Below are positions 32,518 through 41,202 of a stretch of DNA of 43,912 bases, one piece after another. Location of the stretch: the NCBI GenBank assembly GCA_005882045.1, contig VBHO01000147.1, positions 1 to 43,912 of the forward strand, written 5' to 3'. The DNA is from Chloroflexota bacterium. Its GTDB lineage: Bacteria; Chloroflexota; Dormibacteria; CF-121. Numbering within the stretch: position 1 is the first letter of the stretch; each line of letters opens with the position of its first letter. The translations under genes and the position numbers were made by a program. The notes under the pieces are model-generated. The model was not told the origin of the DNA. It saw nothing but the letters and a program-made list of their open reading frames with translations, and searched no databases.

Positions 32518-33264
32518 TCAGCCTGGGGTGGAAACGCTGACCCCAAGCGCTCCCAGTTCCTGACGGATCCGCCTGGCCAGGGTCACGGCGCCAGGGGTGT
32601 CGCCATGTACGCACAGGGTTCCAAACGATACTGCAAGCCGGCTGCCGTCGCTGGCGCGGACTTCACCCTTGGTGACCAAGGAGCGGACTTGCCGTGCCAC
32701 TTCCGCCGGATCGGTGATCAGCGCGCCCGGCTCGGACCGCGGCAGCAATGTGCCATCCGGACGGTAACGCCGGTCGGCAAAGGCTTCCGCCGTAAAAGGA
32801 TGGCCCACAGCGACTGCCGCCTCCCCCATCGCCGATCCGGCACGACCCACCAACCGCAGGCTTGGAGCGAAGGCGCGGATGGCCGCAACGATCGCGACCG
32901 CCAGGGCGCTATCTGTCTCTGCCTGGTTGTAGAGGGCGCCGTGCGGCTTGACGTGGTGCAGCGCAGTGCCTTCGGCACGAGCGATCGCATCGAGCGCACC
33001 AAGTTGAGGCAAGAGCAGCTCCCGGACTTCGCCCGCGGTCAGCTGCTGCGGCCGCCGACCGAAGCCTTCGCGGTCATCGAACCCTGGGTGGGCACCGACG
33101 GCAACGCCATTTCGCATGGCTATCACTACCGTTGCTCGCATGGTGCGCGCGTCACCGGCGTGAAGTCCGCAGGCGATGTTGGCGGAGCTCAGCAGTGGAA
33201 GCAGTGCCGCATCGGTTTGCGGGTCACCTTCGCCGACGTCAGCGTTCAGATCGAGCTGCCGCAC
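32518..33264 (-). CDS. pxpA: 5-oxoprolinase subunit PxpA (LamB/YcsF family)
   Basis: 248 residues from GTG 33264 (the longer frame lies over nrfD). PxpA works with PxpB and PxpC to cleave 5-oxoproline with ATP. Motifs: LDLNADVGEGDPQTDAALLP, LSSANIACGLHAGD, VAVGAHPGFDDREGFGRRPQ, LHHVKPHGALYNQAETDSAL, AEAFADRRYRPDGTLLPRSE, TLCVHGDTPGAVTLARRIR. No pxpB or pxpC is in the window. It overlaps nrfD by 19 bases and lies last in the formate dehydrogenase operon. A gene remnant follows its stop. Confidence 0.85.
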   Translation of the reverse strand: MRQLDLNADVGEGDPQTDAALLPLLSSANIACGLHAGDARTMRATVVIAMRNGVAVGAHPGFDDREGFGRRPQQLTAGEVRELLLPQLGALDAIARAEGTALHHVKPHGALYNQAETDSALAVAIVAAIRAFAPSLRLVGRAGSAMGEAAVAVGHPFTAEAFADRRYRPDGTLLPRSEPGALITDPAEVARQVRSLVTKGEVRASDGSRLAVSFGTLCVHGDTPGAVTLARRIRQELGALGVSVSTPG

Positions 33265-34292
33265 CCGCCGAGATTTTCTCCGGCCTTCGACAGGTCGAAG
33301 GATGCCGACTGGTCTTCTGACGAGTCCTTGCCGGCCTCGAAGATGCTCCAGCGTAGTGCTAGGGATCCGATCATGCTGCACATGGCCGCAGCCGTCGACA
33401 ACGATCGCACCGTGCGACTATGCCCGCGACGCGCGAAGCCATGAAGCAGGAGCGGTAGCAACCCTCCTGCGAAGACGGCGCCCAACCAGAATGGCGGGGC
33501 GAATCGACCGGTCGTCAGCGGTCGAGCGGCCTTTCCGGACTGCACGAGGTAGCCAGTGAGAATGGCCATCTCGCCGAGCGACGCCGCCGATTCGACGGTG
33601 GCAAGCCGGTGGAGGGTCGCCTCGGGCGCGCCGCGGCGCGCGGCCTGGAGGGTGACCGCGGCCGAGCCGCTCGACAACGCCGAAGCCATGAAGACGCCGC
33701 CCAGCAACCTGCTCTTCGCCCACAACGGGACATTGGTGGCGCCCAAAAGCACACCGCTATAGCCCGCGAGCGTCAAGCCGAGAAGACAGCCGGTCAGCTC
33801 GGTCAGGCGACGCGGCACGAGCCCGACCAGCGCGCGCAGGGGCCCGCGAAGCAGTCCCGTATCGGCCGCATGCAACCCGGCTCTCGCGAATGCAAGTGGC
33901 GTGAACCCGGTCAGCGTCCATGCGCCGAGATTCATCGGCGAGAGGGGCTTGAAGATACGCAGCATGTGATGAAAGCGCTCCGGTCGACCGAGGTCGCCGA
34001 TTAGCAGCGGCGCACAGGGGAGGAGGGCGGCCGCCGCGACGTAGAAGCCGTCGGCAGCGATTCGGCGGTCGTCGGCGGATCCAAACGTTTGCGCCAGCGA
34101 CGCCGTGACGAAGGCGCCGGCACCCAGCCCACCGAGCCAGAAGTAGGCGGGCACCTCCCAGGTCCATACCGGACGGCGCACGACCGGGTAGTCGTAATAG
34201 CCCGCAGTGCCCGCACTGCCCCCACCCTGACCCTCCCCCGCGAGCGGGGGAGGGGAATTTCCGTGCGGGAGAGAGAAATTGCCCCCGGTCAT
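33246..34292 (-). CDS. nrfD: NrfD/PsrC-like membrane subunit of formate dehydrogenase
   Basis: 348 residues from ATG 34292 (ATGA overlap with fdhB). A multi-spanning quinone-interacting anchor of the NrfD/PsrC family with about 8-9 hydrophobic helices (WEVPAYFWLGGLGAGAFVTA, LPCAPLLIGDLGRPERFHHM, GLTLAGYSGVLLGATNVPLW, LLGGVFMASALSSGSAAVTL, FWLGAVFAGGLLPLLLHGFA). It would pass electrons between the iron-sulphur subunit and the quinone pool. Repeat copy D (34219..34258) encodes residues about 12-25 (NSPPPLAGEGQGGGSAG), just before the first helix. The open frame upstream of 34292 is antisense/overlapping fdhB and was excluded. Confidence 0.85.
   Translation of the reverse strand: MTGGNFSLPHGNSPPPLAGEGQGGGSAGTAGYYDYPVVRRPVWTWEVPAYFWLGGLGAGAFVTASLAQTFGSADDRRIAADGFYVAAAALLPCAPLLIGDLGRPERFHHMLRIFKPLSPMNLGAWTLTGFTPLAFARAGLHAADTGLLRGPLRALVGLVPRRLTELTGCLLGLTLAGYSGVLLGATNVPLWAKSRLLGGVFMASALSSGSAAVTLQAARRGAPEATLHRLATVESAASLGEMAILTGYLVQSGKAARPLTTGRFAPPFWLGAVFAGGLLPLLLHGFARRGHSRTVRSLSTAAAMCSMIGSLALRWSIFEAGKDSSEDQSASFDLSKAGENLGGCGSSI
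34219..34258 (-). repeat. Dispersed GC-rich palindromic repeat, copy D (inside nrfD)
   Basis: Plus strand CCCCCACCCTGACCCTCCCC, then CGCGAGCGGGGGAGGGGAAT. Almost identical to copy C. The tail GTGCGGGAGAGAGA (34263..34276) resembles the degenerate second half that follows copy C, suggesting a longer element. Confidence 0.8.
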
Positions 34293-35134
34293 TGGCGGCC
34301 GCCACGAAACACGAGGGCCGCCACCATCGCGAATCCAATCCCGACGGCGGCACTCCAGCCATAGCGTTCCGCCATGGTCTTGCGCGGCAAGCGCGGGACC
34401 TCGGGCAGGTTGTAAGCCTCCGGCTTGTCGAGCAGCAGGAAGAAGGCATGCAACGGACCGACCTCCGCCGCCTCCTTTCCTTCCGGCATTCCGTAGAGGC
34501 GCGCCGTCGACTCGCCGCGTGCCTTGAGCTCGCCGAGACGCTGACGAGCCCGCTGTTGCAGTTCCTCGACGTCGCCGAACTGGATCGACGCCGTCGGACA
34601 CGACTTGGCGCAGGCCGGGGTCATGTCATCCTTCAACCGGTCGTAGCAGAGGGTGCATTTGTGGGCCGTCCCAACCTCGAATGTGCTCTCCTTCGGGACC
34701 CGGTCGATGACGCCGAAGGGGCAGGCCGGCACGCAGAAGCCACAGCCGTTACAGATGTCTTGCTGGACGTAGACCGTGTCGAATTCGGTGCGCACGAGCG
34801 CGCCGGTCGGGCACGCCTCGAGGCAAGCCGCATTGGCGCAATGCTTGCAGACGTCCGACATCATCAGCCAGCGCTGCTCCTGCCGGCTGCCGTTGGCCTT
34901 CGCCTGCTCGATGAATTGCACGTGCCGCCAGGTGGTGGCACCCAGGTGACCGGTGTTGTCGTAGCTGTTTCCGGTGATGGCAAAGCCGTCGGCGGGCAAC
35001 TGGTTCCACTGCTTGCAGGCGACTTCGCAGGCCTTGCAACCGATACAGAGGCTGGTGTCGGTGAAGAAGCCCTTCGCTTTCTTCGGCGGCGGCGGCTCCT
35101 CGAGATTCATGAGCCGCTTGTAGCCATCGATCAT
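34289..35134 (-). CDS. fdhB: Formate dehydrogenase iron-sulphur subunit
   Basis: 281 residues. Four [4Fe-4S] ligand sets: CIGCKACEVACKQW, VCKHCANAACLEACPTGALV, ICNGCGFCVPACPFGVIDRV, HKCTLCYDRLKDDMTPACAK. Near the C-terminus one hydrophobic helix (YGWSAAVGIGFAMVAALVF) anchors it, as in FdnH/FdoH. It carries electrons from FdhA to NrfD. Starts with ATGA overlap with fdhA and ends with ATGA overlap with nrfD, so the whole complex is coupled. Confidence 0.9.
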   Translation of the reverse strand: MIDGYKRLMNLEEPPPPKKAKGFFTDTSLCIGCKACEVACKQWNQLPADGFAITGNSYDNTGHLGATTWRHVQFIEQAKANGSRQEQRWLMMSDVCKHCANAACLEACPTGALVRTEFDTVYVQQDICNGCGFCVPACPFGVIDRVPKESTFEVGTAHKCTLCYDRLKDDMTPACAKSCPTASIQFGDVEELQQRARQRLGELKARGESTARLYGMPEGKEAAEVGPLHAFFLLLDKPEAYNLPEVPRLPRKTMAERYGWSAAVGIGFAMVAALVFRGGRQ

Positions 35135-38124
35135 CGCAAGCGCCCCTTTCGGAGGTTGCAGGTCAGCGCTTTGTCTTCCTGGATGTAGACGTTCGGTTCC
35201 TCGGAGAGCGCCACCAGGTCATTCGCCATGGCACCCGTGACCAGCCCTTTGTAGCCCCAGTGATAGGGCAGACCGACCTCGTGAATCAGGTTGCCGTTGT
35301 GGCGGAAGGGACGGACGCGTCGGGTGACGAGCGCCTTGCACTCGATTTGATTCCGCGGCGTCGACACGACGACCCAATCGAGATTTTCGATCCCCTTCTC
35401 GGCGGCCAGCTCGGGACTGATCTCGGCGAACATCTCCGGCATCAGCTCGCTGAGCCAGCTGTTCCACCGCGACATCGAACCCGAGGTGTACTGCTCGGTC
35501 ACGCGATAGGTCGTGACGATGTACGGATACTGCGGGTCGCCGGGTGGACTGATTGGGTTGTCCGTGCGACGGAATCGCTTGGCCACCGGGCTGTCCTGGC
35601 GCGGGTACAGATCATTGCTGAGTGGTGATTCGAGCGGTTCGTAGTGGGTGGGCAGCGGGCCGTCCTTGAGCCCGCTGGGAGCAAACAGCCAGCCGCGACC
35701 ATCGGCTTTGAGCGTGAACGGATCAGAGCCGGAGTGTAGGTCCATCCCGGTGCCCTGCCCTTTCGCTGGCGTGTCGGGCGCCTTCCCCAGCGGAAAATCG
35801 GGCACGTCGAGCCCGGTCCAGCTCCCGGCGCCGGCGTCCCACCAGACGTACTTCTTTCGCTCGGACCAGGGCTTGCCGGCCGGGTCCGCGGAAGCGCGGT
35901 TATAGAGGATGCGCCGGTTGCCAGGCCAGGCGAAACCCCACTCGGGATCGACGTAGTTTCCGGGAGTGCGGTTTCGGCGACGTGCCAGGTTCTGACCGGG
36001 CGCGGGAAACACGCCGGAATAGATCCAGACGCCGCAGGCCGTGGAGCCGTCATCCTTCAGCCGTTCGAACCCGGGGATCCGCTCGTGATCGGCGACGGTG
36101 TAGCCGTTGACTTCCATAAGGACTTTCTCGGCCGACGGCTCGTCCTGGATTCGATACTCGGGATCCGGGCGCTCCGGCAGATAGTCCCAGGTGAGGTTGC
36201 GCAATCCCTGGTCGTGCGGATTCGCCGACTCGAGGTAGAGCTCCTTCAACCGCCGGCCCAGGTGATAGAGAAACCAGAGGTCGGATCGGGCGTCGCCCGG
36301 CGGATCGACCGCCTTGTCGTGATACTGCAGGAGGCGCTGGGTGTTGGTGAAGGTGCCTTCTTTCTCACCCGGCCCGGCCGTCGGGACCAGGAAGACCTCG
36401 GTCTTGATATCGGCCGGCTTCCATCCTTCCGGCGCGGCGTACCAGAAGGCTGCGGTCTCCGTCTCGTAGAGGTCGAGCGCGACCATCCAGTCGAGCTGGG
36501 TAAGAGCCTTGCGCTGGAGCCCGGCGTGGGGACTCCCGTTTGCGGGATTCTGCCCAAAGACGACAAAGCCTTTGACCTTGCCGTCCGCCATCGCGGCCGA
36601 GGTCGAGACATGCGAGTGATCGCCCGTCAGCTTGGGAATCCACTGATAGCCGTACTCGTTCTCTTTCCGGGCCTCGTCGCCGTACCACGCCCTCAAGAGG
36701 GAGACCACGAATTTCGGCAGGTTCGACCAGTAGCCGCCCCGGACGAGCGACTCACGCATGTATTGCTCGAGCGTGTCATCGCCCCTGATGACCGCCGGGT
36801 GTGGCAGGTAGCCGGGCAGCAGGTCGAACAGCGTGGGCACGTCGGTCGATCCCTGAATCGACGCGTGGCCGCGCAGCGCCATGATCCCACCGCCCGGCCG
36901 GCCGATGTTGCCCAGCAGCAGCTGCAGGATGCCGGCGGCCCGAATGATCTGGGCGCCGTAGCTCTGCTGGGTCCAGCCTACCGCGTAACAGATCGCACTG
37001 GTCCGCTCGCGCCCAGAGTTTTTCGTCAGGACCTCGGCCACCTGGAGAAAGAGCTCTTTCGGCGAGCCGCACACGCGCTCCACCATCTCGGGCGTGTAGC
37101 GCGCATAGTGGCGCTTGAGGATCTGGAACACGCAGCGCGGGTGCTGCAGCGTTTCGTCGCGAGCCGGTCCGTGCGGCGGCCCCGCATAGGACCAGCTGGC
37201 GTTGTCGTAGCTGCCCGACTGCGGATCGTAGCCGGAGAACAGGCCGCCGTTGTCTTCGGCATCGACGTAGTCACCGCTGACGATCGTCGACGCATTCGTA
37301 TAGGCGAGCACGTATTCCTTGAACCATTGGTCGTGCGTCAGCACGTAGTTGATGAGCCCGCCGAGAAATGCGATGTCACTGCCGGATCGGATAGGCACGT
37401 ACAGGTTCGCGGTGGCGGAGGTGCGTGTAAAGCGCGGATCGACGTGGATGATGGTGGCCCCTTTCTCACGGGCCTTCATCGGCCAGCGATAGCCGACCGG
37501 GTGGTTCTCGGCCATGTTGCTGCCCATGATCAGGATGGCATCTGCGTTGGCGAGGTCTTGCTGGAAGGTGGTCGCCCCACCTCGTCCGAAGCTTGTCCCC
37601 AGACCGGGGACGGTGGAGCTATGTCATATTCGCGCCTGGTTTTCGATCGAGACGACGCCCAGGCCGCCGCTGAACAGCTTCTTGATCAGGTAGTTCTCTT
37701 CGATGTCCATCGTCGCCCCGCCCAGCGTCGCAATCGCCGTCGTCTGGTTGACGAGCTTGCCCTCAGCGGTGCGCTCGACGAAGGTGGCGTCGCGCGTTTC
37801 CTTGATAAGGGTCGCGATGCGGTCCATCGCCCACTCGAGCGGCCGGTCTTCCCAGTGGTCCGAGTAGGGCGCGCGGTATCGCACCGTGGTTACCCGGTTG
37901 GGGTTGACCACATATTGAAAGGTTGAGGCACCCTTCGGGCACAACGTGCCTTCGTTGATGGGCGAGGCCGGGTTCCCCTCGATGTCGATGATCCGCTTGT
38001 CCCTGACGTAGACCAGCTGGCTGCATCCGACCGCGCAATAAGGACAAACGGAGGCGACCGCCTTGTCGGCGCGGCGAGTGCGGGGTTCCTTTTCGATCGA
38101 TTCGCGCGACACCGGCTGGGCCAA
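35131..38124 (-). CDS. fdhA: Selenocysteine-containing formate dehydrogenase catalytic subunit
   Basis: 998 codons including a stop, with one in-frame TGA (37626..37624) decoded as selenocysteine, Sec167, in QARI-Sec-HSSTVPG. The frame is continuous on both sides. [4Fe-4S] Cys27, 30, 34 and 62 (VCPYCAVGC...LCPKG); IMGSNMAENHPVGYRW; GNIGRPGGGIMALRGHASIQ; C-terminal MGD-binding domain (KALVTRRVRPFRHNGNLIHE, GLPYHWGYKGLV). Mo/W-bis-MGD enzyme, formate to CO2. Start TTG 38124 with TAGGAGG upstream. The N-terminus (MAQPVSRESIEKEPRTRRAD) has no Tat signal, unlike FdnG, so the subunit may face the cytoplasm. Feeds FdhB and NrfD. SECIS: separate entry. Confidence 0.9.
37595..37626 (-). ncRNA. SECIS element for selenocysteine insertion in fdhA
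   Basis: After the UGA the minus strand reads 18 bases, then the loop GGUCU. The hairpin stem is GUCCCC/GGGGAC (37611..37606 with 37600..37595), loop at 37605..37601. E. coli fdhF has the same GGUCU loop at the same 18-base distance after its UGA. A lower AGCU/AGCU pairing is possible. SelB and tRNA-Sec genes are not in the window. Confidence 0.85.
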
Positions 38125-38253
38125 AATGCGCCTCCTACAGGTCGCGTGCCGCCCTATCTCGCTCGCCTTTCCACACCGGGGCTCGCTATTTAGCCAGTAT
38201 ATGGACGCCCCTCGAGCCGGCGCCACCGTAACCTGAGGCCGTAGGTAAGGGCG

Positions 38254-38376: not shown

Positions 38377-38472
38377 GCGATCTGAGCCGCCGCCGGAGCG
38401 GGTGGCGAACCGCCGTTGAACCTTCTAAGGGGCCTCTCAGGGCCGGTTCACACCGCGGCCATAGCCTTACCT

Positions 38473-39939
38473 ATGAATATGGACGACGCCGCGCCGACAC
38501 CGACGTCCGCGACGAGATCACTGCCGATCTGGCGGCGGCCGGTGTCACGCCGAGCGGTGCTGGCCACCGGCGCAGCCGGGGCCGGGGCGGCCGCGCTGGC
38601 CGTTCTCTGGAAGGGCGCCGACCTGACGCAGATCCTGAACCGAGTGCGGGATCTGACGCATGACTACCAGGGCGCCCTGAGCAACCCGCGCGTTCGGGCG
38701 GCGCACCTGCTGCGCCGGGCCGGCTTCGGCGGCACCGGGCAGGAGGTCGACCGGCTCGCCGCCATGACCACCACGGACATGGCGCAGTCACTGCTGGACT
38801 ACCAGCAGACGTCGAATGCCACGCTCGACGGACAGCTGCCAACGCTGGACCTTAGCTCGGCCAAGGGACCAAATCCGGGCGCGGTCCAAGCCTGGTGGCT
38901 GCAACGGATGGTGCAGACGGCGCGGCCGCTGGAAGAGAAGATGACCCTCTTCTGGCACGGTCTGCTGACCAGCGGACTCGACAAAGCCGGTCCGGGTCAG
39001 ATGTACGTGCAGAACGAGCTGTTTCGGAAGATGGCGCTCGCCAACTTCGATGATTTGCTCAAGGCGGTGTCGAAAGATCCGGCGATGATGATCTACCTCG
39101 ACACCGAGACCAACCGCAAGGGCAAGCCCAACGAGAACTACGCCCGCGAGCTGATGGAGCTCTTCACGACCGGCATCGGGCATTACACCGAGGACGATGT
39201 CCGCGAGTCCGCCCGGGCATTCACCGGCTGGACGCTTCAAGGCGGCAAGCAAGTGCGCTACACGATGCAGTCGGCCTTCATCCCGCGCTACTTCGACGGC
39301 GGGCAGAAGACCTTCATGGGCAAGACCGGCAACTTCACCGGCGACGACATCGTGGAGATACTGGTGCCGCTGCGGGCAACCGCCGAGCGCCTCTCCACGC
39401 GACTCTTCAGCTTCTTCGCCTACCAGAACCCAGAGCCGGAGATCGTGCATCACCTGGCCAACACCTTCCAGCAATCGCATTACAACGTGGGGGCGGTTGT
39501 CCGCGAAATCTTCAGCATGGACGCCTTCTATTCCGCGAAGGCATATCGTGCGCTGGTCAAGAGCCCGGCCGAACTGACGGCCCAGACCCTGCGCGCAACC
39601 GGCGCCGATGCGCGGGCGTACCTGGCGGCGGCCAACGCGATGGCGCCGATGGGCCAGGTGCTCTTCTATCCGCCGAACGTGGCCGGCTGGCCAGGCGGCG
39701 CCTCGTGGATCAACAGCTCGACGTTGCTGAACCGCCTCAACTTCGCCAACGCGGCGGCGCGACGCGCACCGATGTCGTCGCCCGCGCAGACCGGCGACCA
39801 GCTGACGGCCACCCTGGTTGACGGCAACATCACAGGCAACACGCGCGATGGCTTGCAGGCCTTTGCGGCCGCCCATCCGGACGACCACGCCGGCCTCCTG
39901 TTCATGACGATGGCGACGCCGGAGTTTCAACTGAACTGA
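38473..39939 (+). CDS. DUF1800 family Tat-exported protein
   Basis: 488 residues from ATG 38473 (MNMDDAAPTPTSATRSLPIW; TAGCCT five bases upstream, no SD). A Tat signal is seen: PVSRRAVLATGAAGAGAAAL. DUF1800 core: NPRVRAAHLLRRAGFGGTGQ, EEKMTLFWHGLLTSGLDKAG, MIYLDTETNRKGKPNENYAR, ELMELFTTGIGHYTEDDVRE, ARAFTGWTLQGGKQV, VLFYPPNVAGWPGGASWINS. Such proteins almost always neighbour a DUF1501 protein, as here (39955). Their function is unestablished; a role at the cell surface is assumed. Exported to the outer face. Confidence 0.85.
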   Translation: MNMDDAAPTPTSATRSLPIWRRPVSRRAVLATGAAGAGAAALAVLWKGADLTQILNRVRDLTHDYQGALSNPRVRAAHLLRRAGFGGTGQEVDRLAAMTTTDMAQSLLDYQQTSNATLDGQLPTLDLSSAKGPNPGAVQAWWLQRMVQTARPLEEKMTLFWHGLLTSGLDKAGPGQMYVQNELFRKMALANFDDLLKAVSKDPAMMIYLDTETNRKGKPNENYARELMELFTTGIGHYTEDDVRESARAFTGWTLQGGKQVRYTMQSAFIPRYFDGGQKTFMGKTGNFTGDDIVEILVPLRATAERLSTRLFSFFAYQNPEPEIVHHLANTFQQSHYNVGAVVREIFSMDAFYSAKAYRALVKSPAELTAQTLRATGADARAYLAAANAMAPMGQVLFYPPNVAGWPGGASWINSSTLLNRLNFANAAARRAPMSSPAQTGDQLTATLVDGNITGNTRDGLQAFAAAHPDDHAGLLFMTMATPEFQLN

Positions 39940-39954
39940 TGGAGATGAGCACTC

Positions 39955-41202
39955 ATGTTTAGCCGCCGCGACTTCATGAAGCAGGGCCTGCTGCCGGTGT
40001 TTGCCGGGTCGGCCGTGCCGAGCATCTTCGCCAACGGCCTGGCAGCCGCCGCCGCGGACTCGCCCCAGGCCACCCCCAACGGCCGGATCCTCGTGCTGGT
40101 TCAGCTGGCGGGCGGCAACGACGGCCTCAACACCCTGATCCCTTTCCAGGACGGCGCTTACCACGACGCCCGGCCAACGCTGCGCCAGGACACGGGTGTG
40201 CTGACACTCAACAACCAACTCGGCCTGCATCCGAACCTCAAGGGGCTCAAGGCCAGCTGGGACGCGGGGCAGCTCGCCATCGTGCAGGGTGTCGGGTATC
40301 CAAGCCCCAACCTGTCGCACTTCGCCTCCATGTCGATCTGGGAGACCGCCAGCGTGCAGGGCGGCATCGGCGACGGCTGGCTGGGACGCTACCTCAATTA
40401 CCTCGACAAGGTCGGCGAGAGTCCGAACCACGCGCTCGAAGGCGTGAGCGCCGGTTCACTGGTGCCGCCGGAACTGCGCTCGAAGACGCCAGTCACGGCG
40501 CTCCAGTCGCTCAGCACCTTCCGCCTGCAGCCGGTCAACGAGCACGGCACCCAGGTCGACGTGGAGAACCCGCTGATGAAGTTCTACGGCGCATTCAAGA
40601 CGGCCGGCCCAGCGCCGTTTGGGGCCCTGCTCGACACCACGTTGCAGGAAGCGCTGCAAGCGTCGCACGCCTTGCAGGCGACCGATGCGACCTACCAGCC
40701 CAAGGCCACCTATCCGGCGAAGAGCCCAATCGCCAGCTCGCTCAAGCTGGTGGCGGAAACGATCGTGTCAGGACTGGGGGTGCGCGTGGCCCACGTCACC
40801 CTGGGCGGGTTCGACAACCACGCCCGGGAGAAGCCGGTCCACGACAAGCTGCTGCTCGGCCGCGACCAGGCGGTCGCCGCATTCATGCAAGACCTGGCGG
40901 GCCACGGCTACGGCGACAAGGTGCTCGTCATGACCTGGTCGGAGTTCGGACGGCGGGTGAAAGAAAATGGCAGCGCCGGGACCGACCACGGCACCGCCGC
41001 GCCGATGTTCCTGCTGGGTGCACCGGTGAAGGGCGGTCTCTACGGCCAGCAGCCGAGCCTGGCCGATCTCGACAACGGGAACCTCAAGTTCACCACCGAC
41101 TTCCGTTCGGTGTATGCGTCCGTGCTGCAGGGCTACCTCAACGCGCCAGCGTCGGAGCTGCTGGGTGGCAACTACGAAATCCTCCCGCTGCTCAAGGCAT
41201 AG
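39955..41202 (+). CDS. DUF1501 family Tat-exported protein
   Basis: 415 residues. Tat signal MFSRRDFMKQGLLPVFAGSA. Core motifs of the DUF1501 (sulfatase-like fold) family: RILVLVQLAGGNDGLNTLIP, RPTLRQDTGVLTLN, AIVQGVGYPSPNLSHFASMS, HVTLGGFDNHAREK, VLVMTWSEFGRRVKENGSAG, TDHGTAAPMFLLGAPVKGGL. It shares the alkaline-phosphatase-like fold of sulfatases. Substrate and activity are unknown. SD GGAGATGAG upstream. 15 bases downstream of the DUF1800 gene. Confidence 0.85.
   Translation: MFSRRDFMKQGLLPVFAGSAVPSIFANGLAAAAADSPQATPNGRILVLVQLAGGNDGLNTLIPFQDGAYHDARPTLRQDTGVLTLNNQLGLHPNLKGLKASWDAGQLAIVQGVGYPSPNLSHFASMSIWETASVQGGIGDGWLGRYLNYLDKVGESPNHALEGVSAGSLVPPELRSKTPVTALQSLSTFRLQPVNEHGTQVDVENPLMKFYGAFKTAGPAPFGALLDTTLQEALQASHALQATDATYQPKATYPAKSPIASSLKLVAETIVSGLGVRVAHVTLGGFDNHAREKPVHDKLLLGRDQAVAAFMQDLAGHGYGDKVLVMTWSEFGRRVKENGSAGTDHGTAAPMFLLGAPVKGGLYGQQPSLADLDNGNLKFTTDFRSVYASVLQGYLNAPASELLGGNYEILPLLKA

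Follow-up and report, generated by a model that had tools for sequence, protein, structure and literature searches.

Formate dehydrogenase genes and an in-frame UGA

The window, by which we mean the whole stretch of 43,912 nucleotides that was analysed, carries fdhA, the gene for a formate dehydrogenase (FDH) alpha subunit, together with genes for an fdhB-like Fe-S subunit and an NrfD-type membrane subunit (Table 1). The frame of fdhA stays open over 998 codons, with a single internal TGA besides the terminal one, and when TGA is read as selenocysteine (Sec) it yields a protein of 997 residues. A sequence-only reading of this DNA had already noted an in-frame TGA in an otherwise continuous FDH frame. 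That observation is exact to the nucleotide, and the strand, which was left unstated, is minus. The predicted protein scored 1501.7 bits against NCBIfam model NF041513 (cut-off 1400) and 1022.7 bits against TIGR01553 (cut-off 814.2), and contains the Pfam domains Molybdopterin, Fe4S4 and Molydop_binding. With a score above the curated cut-off and a Sec codon at the UH motif (QARIUHSST), FdhA belongs to the Sec-containing formate dehydrogenase alpha family. Model NF041513 bears the name 'formate_DH_Act', yet the host that exceeds its cut-off is a member of the Chloroflexota and not of the Actinobacteria, and relatives of the gene are found in many phyla. The internal TGA falls at the known Sec position of the FDH family, and the residue that it would encode is presumably the catalytic metal ligand, as in that enzyme family. 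A gene caller that takes TGA only as a stop would split fdhA in two.

The best NCBIfam match of the fdhB-like subunit is FDH-beta, with a score under the cut-off of that model. The N-terminus of FdhA extends for approximately 25 residues ahead of the Fe-S motif, and inspection by eye revealed no twin-arginine signal there. The combination of FdhA with an NrfD-type membrane subunit and without a visible twin-arginine signal suggests a cytoplasm-facing FDH. The FDH genes are adjoined by a homologue of a 5-oxoprolinase subunit, and a pair of DUF genes runs divergently from fdhA.

Table 1. Positions of the features in the window.
Feature	Position	Strand	Remarks
PxpA (LamB/YcsF) homologue, 5-oxoprolinase subunit	32518-33381	minus	adjoins the FDH genes
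NrfD-type membrane subunit	33246-34601	minus	Pfam NrfD 112.4 bits; start codon uncertain
fdhB-like Fe-S subunit	34289-35134	minus	overlaps fdhA stop; Fer4 domains
fdhA, formate dehydrogenase alpha subunit	35131-38124	minus	TTG start at 38124, TGA stop ending at 35131; 998 codons including stop; internal TGA = Sec at residue 167
SECIS hairpin GTCCCC[GGTCT]GGGGAC	37595-37611	minus	6 Watson-Crick pairs, pentaloop; arms GTCCCC 37611-37606 and GGGGAC 37600-37595; covariation in 150 relatives
Apical loop GGTCT (codons GGT CTG)	37601-37605	minus	RGU invariant among the Sec genes counted
Sec codon, in-frame TGA	37624-37626	minus	motif QARI-U-HSSTVPGLG; translation context QARI-U-HSSTVPGLGTSFGR
Shine-Dalgarno-like AGGAGG	38131-38136	minus	6 nt upstream of the fdhA TTG start
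DUF1800 gene	38416-39939	plus	divergent from fdhA; paired with DUF1501 gene
DUF1501 gene	39955-41202	plus	divergent from fdhA; paired with DUF1800 gene

The hairpin after the UGA and its relatives

Twelve nucleotides separate the TGA from the first arm of the hairpin, and the distance from the UGA to the loop is 18 nt. The 6-bp stem capped by a GGUCU loop that had been described from the letters is thus confirmed. The hairpin lies directly downstream of an in-frame UGA and inside the coding region, as is expected of a bacterial SECIS element (bSECIS), and both its GGTCT loop and its spacing agree with the bSECIS model. In the excerpt of PMC13188914 that we drew on, the apical loop of this model is small, lies 16-37 nt from the UGA and has G in its first two positions, with G or U frequently coming next; the same excerpt states that many putative bSECIS elements are unlike those of E. 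coli and that FdhA is the most widespread bacterial selenoprotein family. An excerpt of PMC1088965 likewise describes a small apical loop with a guanosine. A scan of the window against Rfam returned no match at gathering thresholds.

Taken from the fdhA sequence alone, the hairpin is suggestive evidence only. We resampled synonymous codons according to the codon usage of fdhA, with the residues HSSTVPGLGT fixed, and 17% of these reshuffles had a six-pair stem, 12% a GGTCT loop and 2.1% both, whilst a minimum free energy as low as the native one was reached in 9.2%. The protein sequence VPGLGT itself predisposes to hairpin formation. It could accordingly be argued that the TGA is a true stop, or that it arose by misreading of a Cys codon, and that the conserved residues VPGLGT would by themselves generate such a hairpin in GC-rich DNA; the 2.1% of reshuffles with the same stem and loop, a folding energy that is not extreme and the failure to see selC in the assembly (below) all speak for this. 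Given that figure of 2.1%, the case for a SECIS rests on comparison with relatives.

Genome contigs were therefore scanned with an alignment of 11 FDH sequences, and the best 80 of 585 confirmed loci were kept, with an identity of at least 53%. By title, these best 80 come from Chloroflexi, Actinomycetota, Myxococcus, Planctomycetes, Acidobacteria, Proteobacteria, Gemmatimonadales, Binataceae, Eremiobacterota and others. Every one of these named relatives has a stop codon at the site (80/80 of the best 80 of 585; 78 TGA and 2 TAG), and all 80 have the hairpin at 18 nt, with 6/6 pairs in 77 and 5/6 in 3, and with GGTCT, AGTCT or AGTTT as the loop. The same-genus copies that were read carry the stop as well, which for practical purposes rules out a read error, and the concern that better reads might reveal a Cys codon falls away. 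Both TAG cases (L172 and L173) are from Blastococcus and have an intact GGTCT hairpin; an excerpt of PMC5330540 reports UAG-encoded Sec with a CUA tRNA-Sec for Blastococcus saxobsidens. One further locus (L200) has an apparent Leu at the Sec site, but the codon falls within a few bases of the end of its contig, and the locus was excluded from use.

Pooling the best 80 of 585 with same-phylum loci gave 150 distinct Sec elements (148 TGA, 2 TAG) and 6 Cys homologues. Excluded from this set were genes in which the regex motif is missing (E. coli fdhF, shorter FDH paralogues, SelD and six diverged loci that lack a UH/CH motif, L209-L214), together with frames shorter than 250 codons and entries whose 120-nt context repeated that of another. 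The loop codon is GGU or AGU in 150/150 of the distinct Sec FDH genes counted and in 0/6 Cys homologues. Where it encodes Gly it is GGT in 115/115 Sec genes, a codon that averages 12.8% of the Gly codons of the same genes; where it encodes Ser it is AGT in 35/35, against an average of 6.8% in the same genes. The Cys set is a less clean test of the loop than of the stem, because it is small (n = 6), comes from other FDH subgroups and mostly has a different amino acid at the loop codon (Ala in 5/6, the remaining gene having Ser encoded by AGC).

The stem covaries at synonymous positions. The third bases of the Val and Gly codons, both free to vary without changing the protein, form a Watson-Crick pair in 124 of the 134 GTN..GGN genes, compared with 45.6 expected from the genes' own codon usage; 10,000 shuffles gave a mean of 50.4 and a maximum of 72, in a set of relatives that are not phylogenetically independent. 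All four pairs (C-G, G-C, U-A and A-U) occur at this position. Moreover, three named loci have G-C (CCG..CTC) and one has U-A in place of C-G at the third-base pair of the Pro and Leu codons, and species of the host genus differ between GTC..GGG and GTT..GGA, both sides of the stem changing together. The pattern is that of a bSECIS stem maintained by RNA-level selection in the relatives, and we regard the comparative data as decisive. The idea of a true stop or misread Cys codon above a fortuitous hairpin is already contradicted by these data: it is at odds with the stop at the site in all of the best 80 of 585 relatives and in same-genus copies, with a loop codon that is constant in 150 genes despite its rare background use, with the synonymous covariation of the stem and also with the presence of selA, selB and selD. 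We consider its probability negligible.

Selenocysteine machinery of the host genome

The host genome assembly (G000) comprises 3.2 Mb in 269 contigs and is 91% complete. Two genomes of the host's class, G036 and G048, have every sampled 40-mer in common with the Dormiibacterota isolates palsa_871 and palsa_834 (L069=L157, L070=L152), and the same holds for G121, of the same phylum, and Thermogemmatispora carboxidivorans (L226=L103). The window would accordingly derive from the class to which these Dormibacterota belong, in the phylum Chloroflexota as GTDB defines it. Homologues of selA (545.1 bits) and selB (352.4 bits) are neighbours on contig C136, selD (398.7 bits) is on contig C125, and all three exceed their NCBIfam cut-offs; the Sec site of selD (L022) is likewise encoded by TGA (SHGAG-U-ACK). 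These genes, and the UGA within selD, support the claim of the sequence-only reading that the host makes selenocysteine. As a separate observation, the host selD is a candidate UGA-containing selenoprotein gene with a predicted hairpin 12 nt past the UGA, the loop of which is not GGUCU; Rfam, applied to eight SelA, SelB and SelD loci, gave a single weak match, BjrC68, below the gathering score. A second FDH gene of the host (contig C155) has a TGA followed at 18 nt by an AGTTT loop, the hairpin being GGTGGTC[AGTTT]GGCCGCC. With an AGUUU loop in this gene, the host resembles E. coli in that a single SelB has to recognise different loops. Host SelB aligns over nearly its full length to ribosome-bound E. 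coli SelB (5LZB). Its last 83 residues match PDB 1WSU, the chain of which is presumably Moorella SelB, with an E-value of 5.9e-16, versus 0.005 for 2PJP, which we take to be a domain of E. coli SelB.

The search for sel genes that had been proposed as a check was borne out for selA, selB and selD and not for selC. No tRNA-Sec over the cut-off was found in the 269 contigs of the host assembly, and seven sub-threshold candidates were identified as tRNA-Ser, Leu, Phe, Cys and Arg. At first sight selC is thus missing from a genome in which selB is present, as would be expected if the Sec trait were degenerating, the species having lost selC and kept the UGA and hairpin, with FdhA truncated at residue 166. 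Nine of the 15 genomes of the genus (host included) have a tRNA-Sec over the cut-off, and ARAGORN calls all nine tRNA-SeC(tca). In one of the same-genus genomes (G002), selC adjoins a probable thioredoxin gene, judged by eye from its motif. Host contig C37 (6999 bases) is the counterpart of this region and ends inside the thioredoxin gene, approximately 50 columns before selC in the alignment. As the contig stops some 50 bp short of the syntenic position, host selC is best read as lying in an assembly gap and would be found just beyond the end of C37. The retention of selA, selB and selD, together with that of another FDH gene containing UGA, as well as the fragmentation and incompleteness of the assembly, further argue against a loss of selC, which we judge to be very unlikely.

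The tRNA-Sec sequences drew attention to themselves in another respect. Their T-loop reads ATCGTTC (A54, U58) where TTCGATT is usual, so that the near-universal U54-A58 pair is swapped. Twelve of the 16 tRNA-Sec sequences compared have this T-loop, from same-genus and same-family genomes and one same-class genome (L038-L043, L076-L081). Across 400 Chloroflexota genomes the swap pattern occurs in 13, of which 11 are among the 55 of the host's class and 2 among the 345 others, and the two matches outside the class are not tRNAs according to ARAGORN; of 16 swap-pattern loci, 10 were called tRNA-SeC by that program. The seven other tRNAs of the host genome have a normal TTCGA. The host itself probably shares the swapped T-loop, judging from its genus, its own selC falling in the putative gap. 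An excerpt of PMC7912444 gives U54-A58 as a conserved pair of the tRNA T-loop, and no mention of a swapped 54/58 pair in tRNA-Sec was found in excerpts of two papers from a literature search. This T-loop is the most unusual thing met in the analysis. We tentatively entertain, and hold as a possibility short of an expectation, the view that the Sec machinery here is textbook on its mRNA side and unusual on its tRNA side, with an A54/U58 swap that among 400 Chloroflexota genomes is confined to the host's class. If the swap reflects co-adaptation with SelA or SelB, a structurally variant tRNA-Sec would be reading an unchanged SECIS. Second tRNA-Sec-like copies were also seen, in G002 (contig C29, L248), G015 (contig C83, L251) and G396 (contig C29, L250); they match the pattern from anticodon to T-loop, are not called tRNAs by ARAGORN and are possibly partial duplicates.

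The fdhA element among known systems

Taken together, these data make it almost certain that fdhA is a canonical bacterial selenoprotein gene, decoded via SelB and a hairpin that follows the UGA. SelB carrying GTP and Sec-tRNA-Sec would use its C-terminal winged helix to dock on the hairpin with the GGUCU cap, selenocysteine would be delivered at residue 167 by readthrough during translation, and the resulting Sec-containing FdhA may be expected to be active as a formate dehydrogenase. The fdhA SECIS is real, functional-looking and ordinary; its mechanism is well known and the accepted view is unchanged. What it adds is one well-supported selenoprotein gene and a Sec-decoding trait in an uncultured class. 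A literature search on Dormibacter selenoproteins found no mention of Dormibacter, which is not proof of absence. Moreover, the gene family is a clean example of how selection on the RNA keeps the Gly or Ser codon of the SECIS loop at RGU in genes with Sec, a constraint not seen in the few Cys homologues.

Measured against the general bSECIS model (bSECISearch), as far as the excerpted description goes, the fdhA element has no feature beyond the model. As controls we used fdhF, fdnG and fdoG of E. coli MG1655, retrieved by accession. A blastn search of the fdhA stretch against E. coli gave no match. E. coli fdhF does have, like the host gene, a UGA followed at 18 nt by GGUCU within the coding region, as the sequence-only reading had stated. 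This equal spacing is not independent evidence, because the genes are homologous and their codons at corresponding positions specify identical residues. In fdnG and fdoG of E. coli the loop is AGUCU, again at 18 nt, and Gly/Ser-Leu loop codons are common to the genes of E. coli and the host. The stems differ: that of E. coli fdhF, GTTGCA[GGTCT]GCACCA, has no pairing in the register of the host, whereas six uninterrupted Watson-Crick pairs close the pentaloop in host fdhA. In E. coli fdhF the stem is shifted; it contains a bulged U and is closed by an A-U pair.

The closest counterpart of the SECIS-binding end of host SelB is found in Moorella thermoacetica, a Firmicute whose fdhA SECIS carries a GGUCU loop and for which a structure of SelB with the SECIS has reportedly been solved in earlier work. 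Studies of SelB and the SECIS in Moorella appear among the references of PMC11881835. The proposal that recognition of this loop by SelB is conserved far from the Proteobacteria is consistent with our results, and it is not new, having already been established with Moorella. It is the Moorella SelB-SECIS complex (PDB 1WSU), from a different phylum, that the C-terminal winged helices of host SelB, compared here as sequence, match best.
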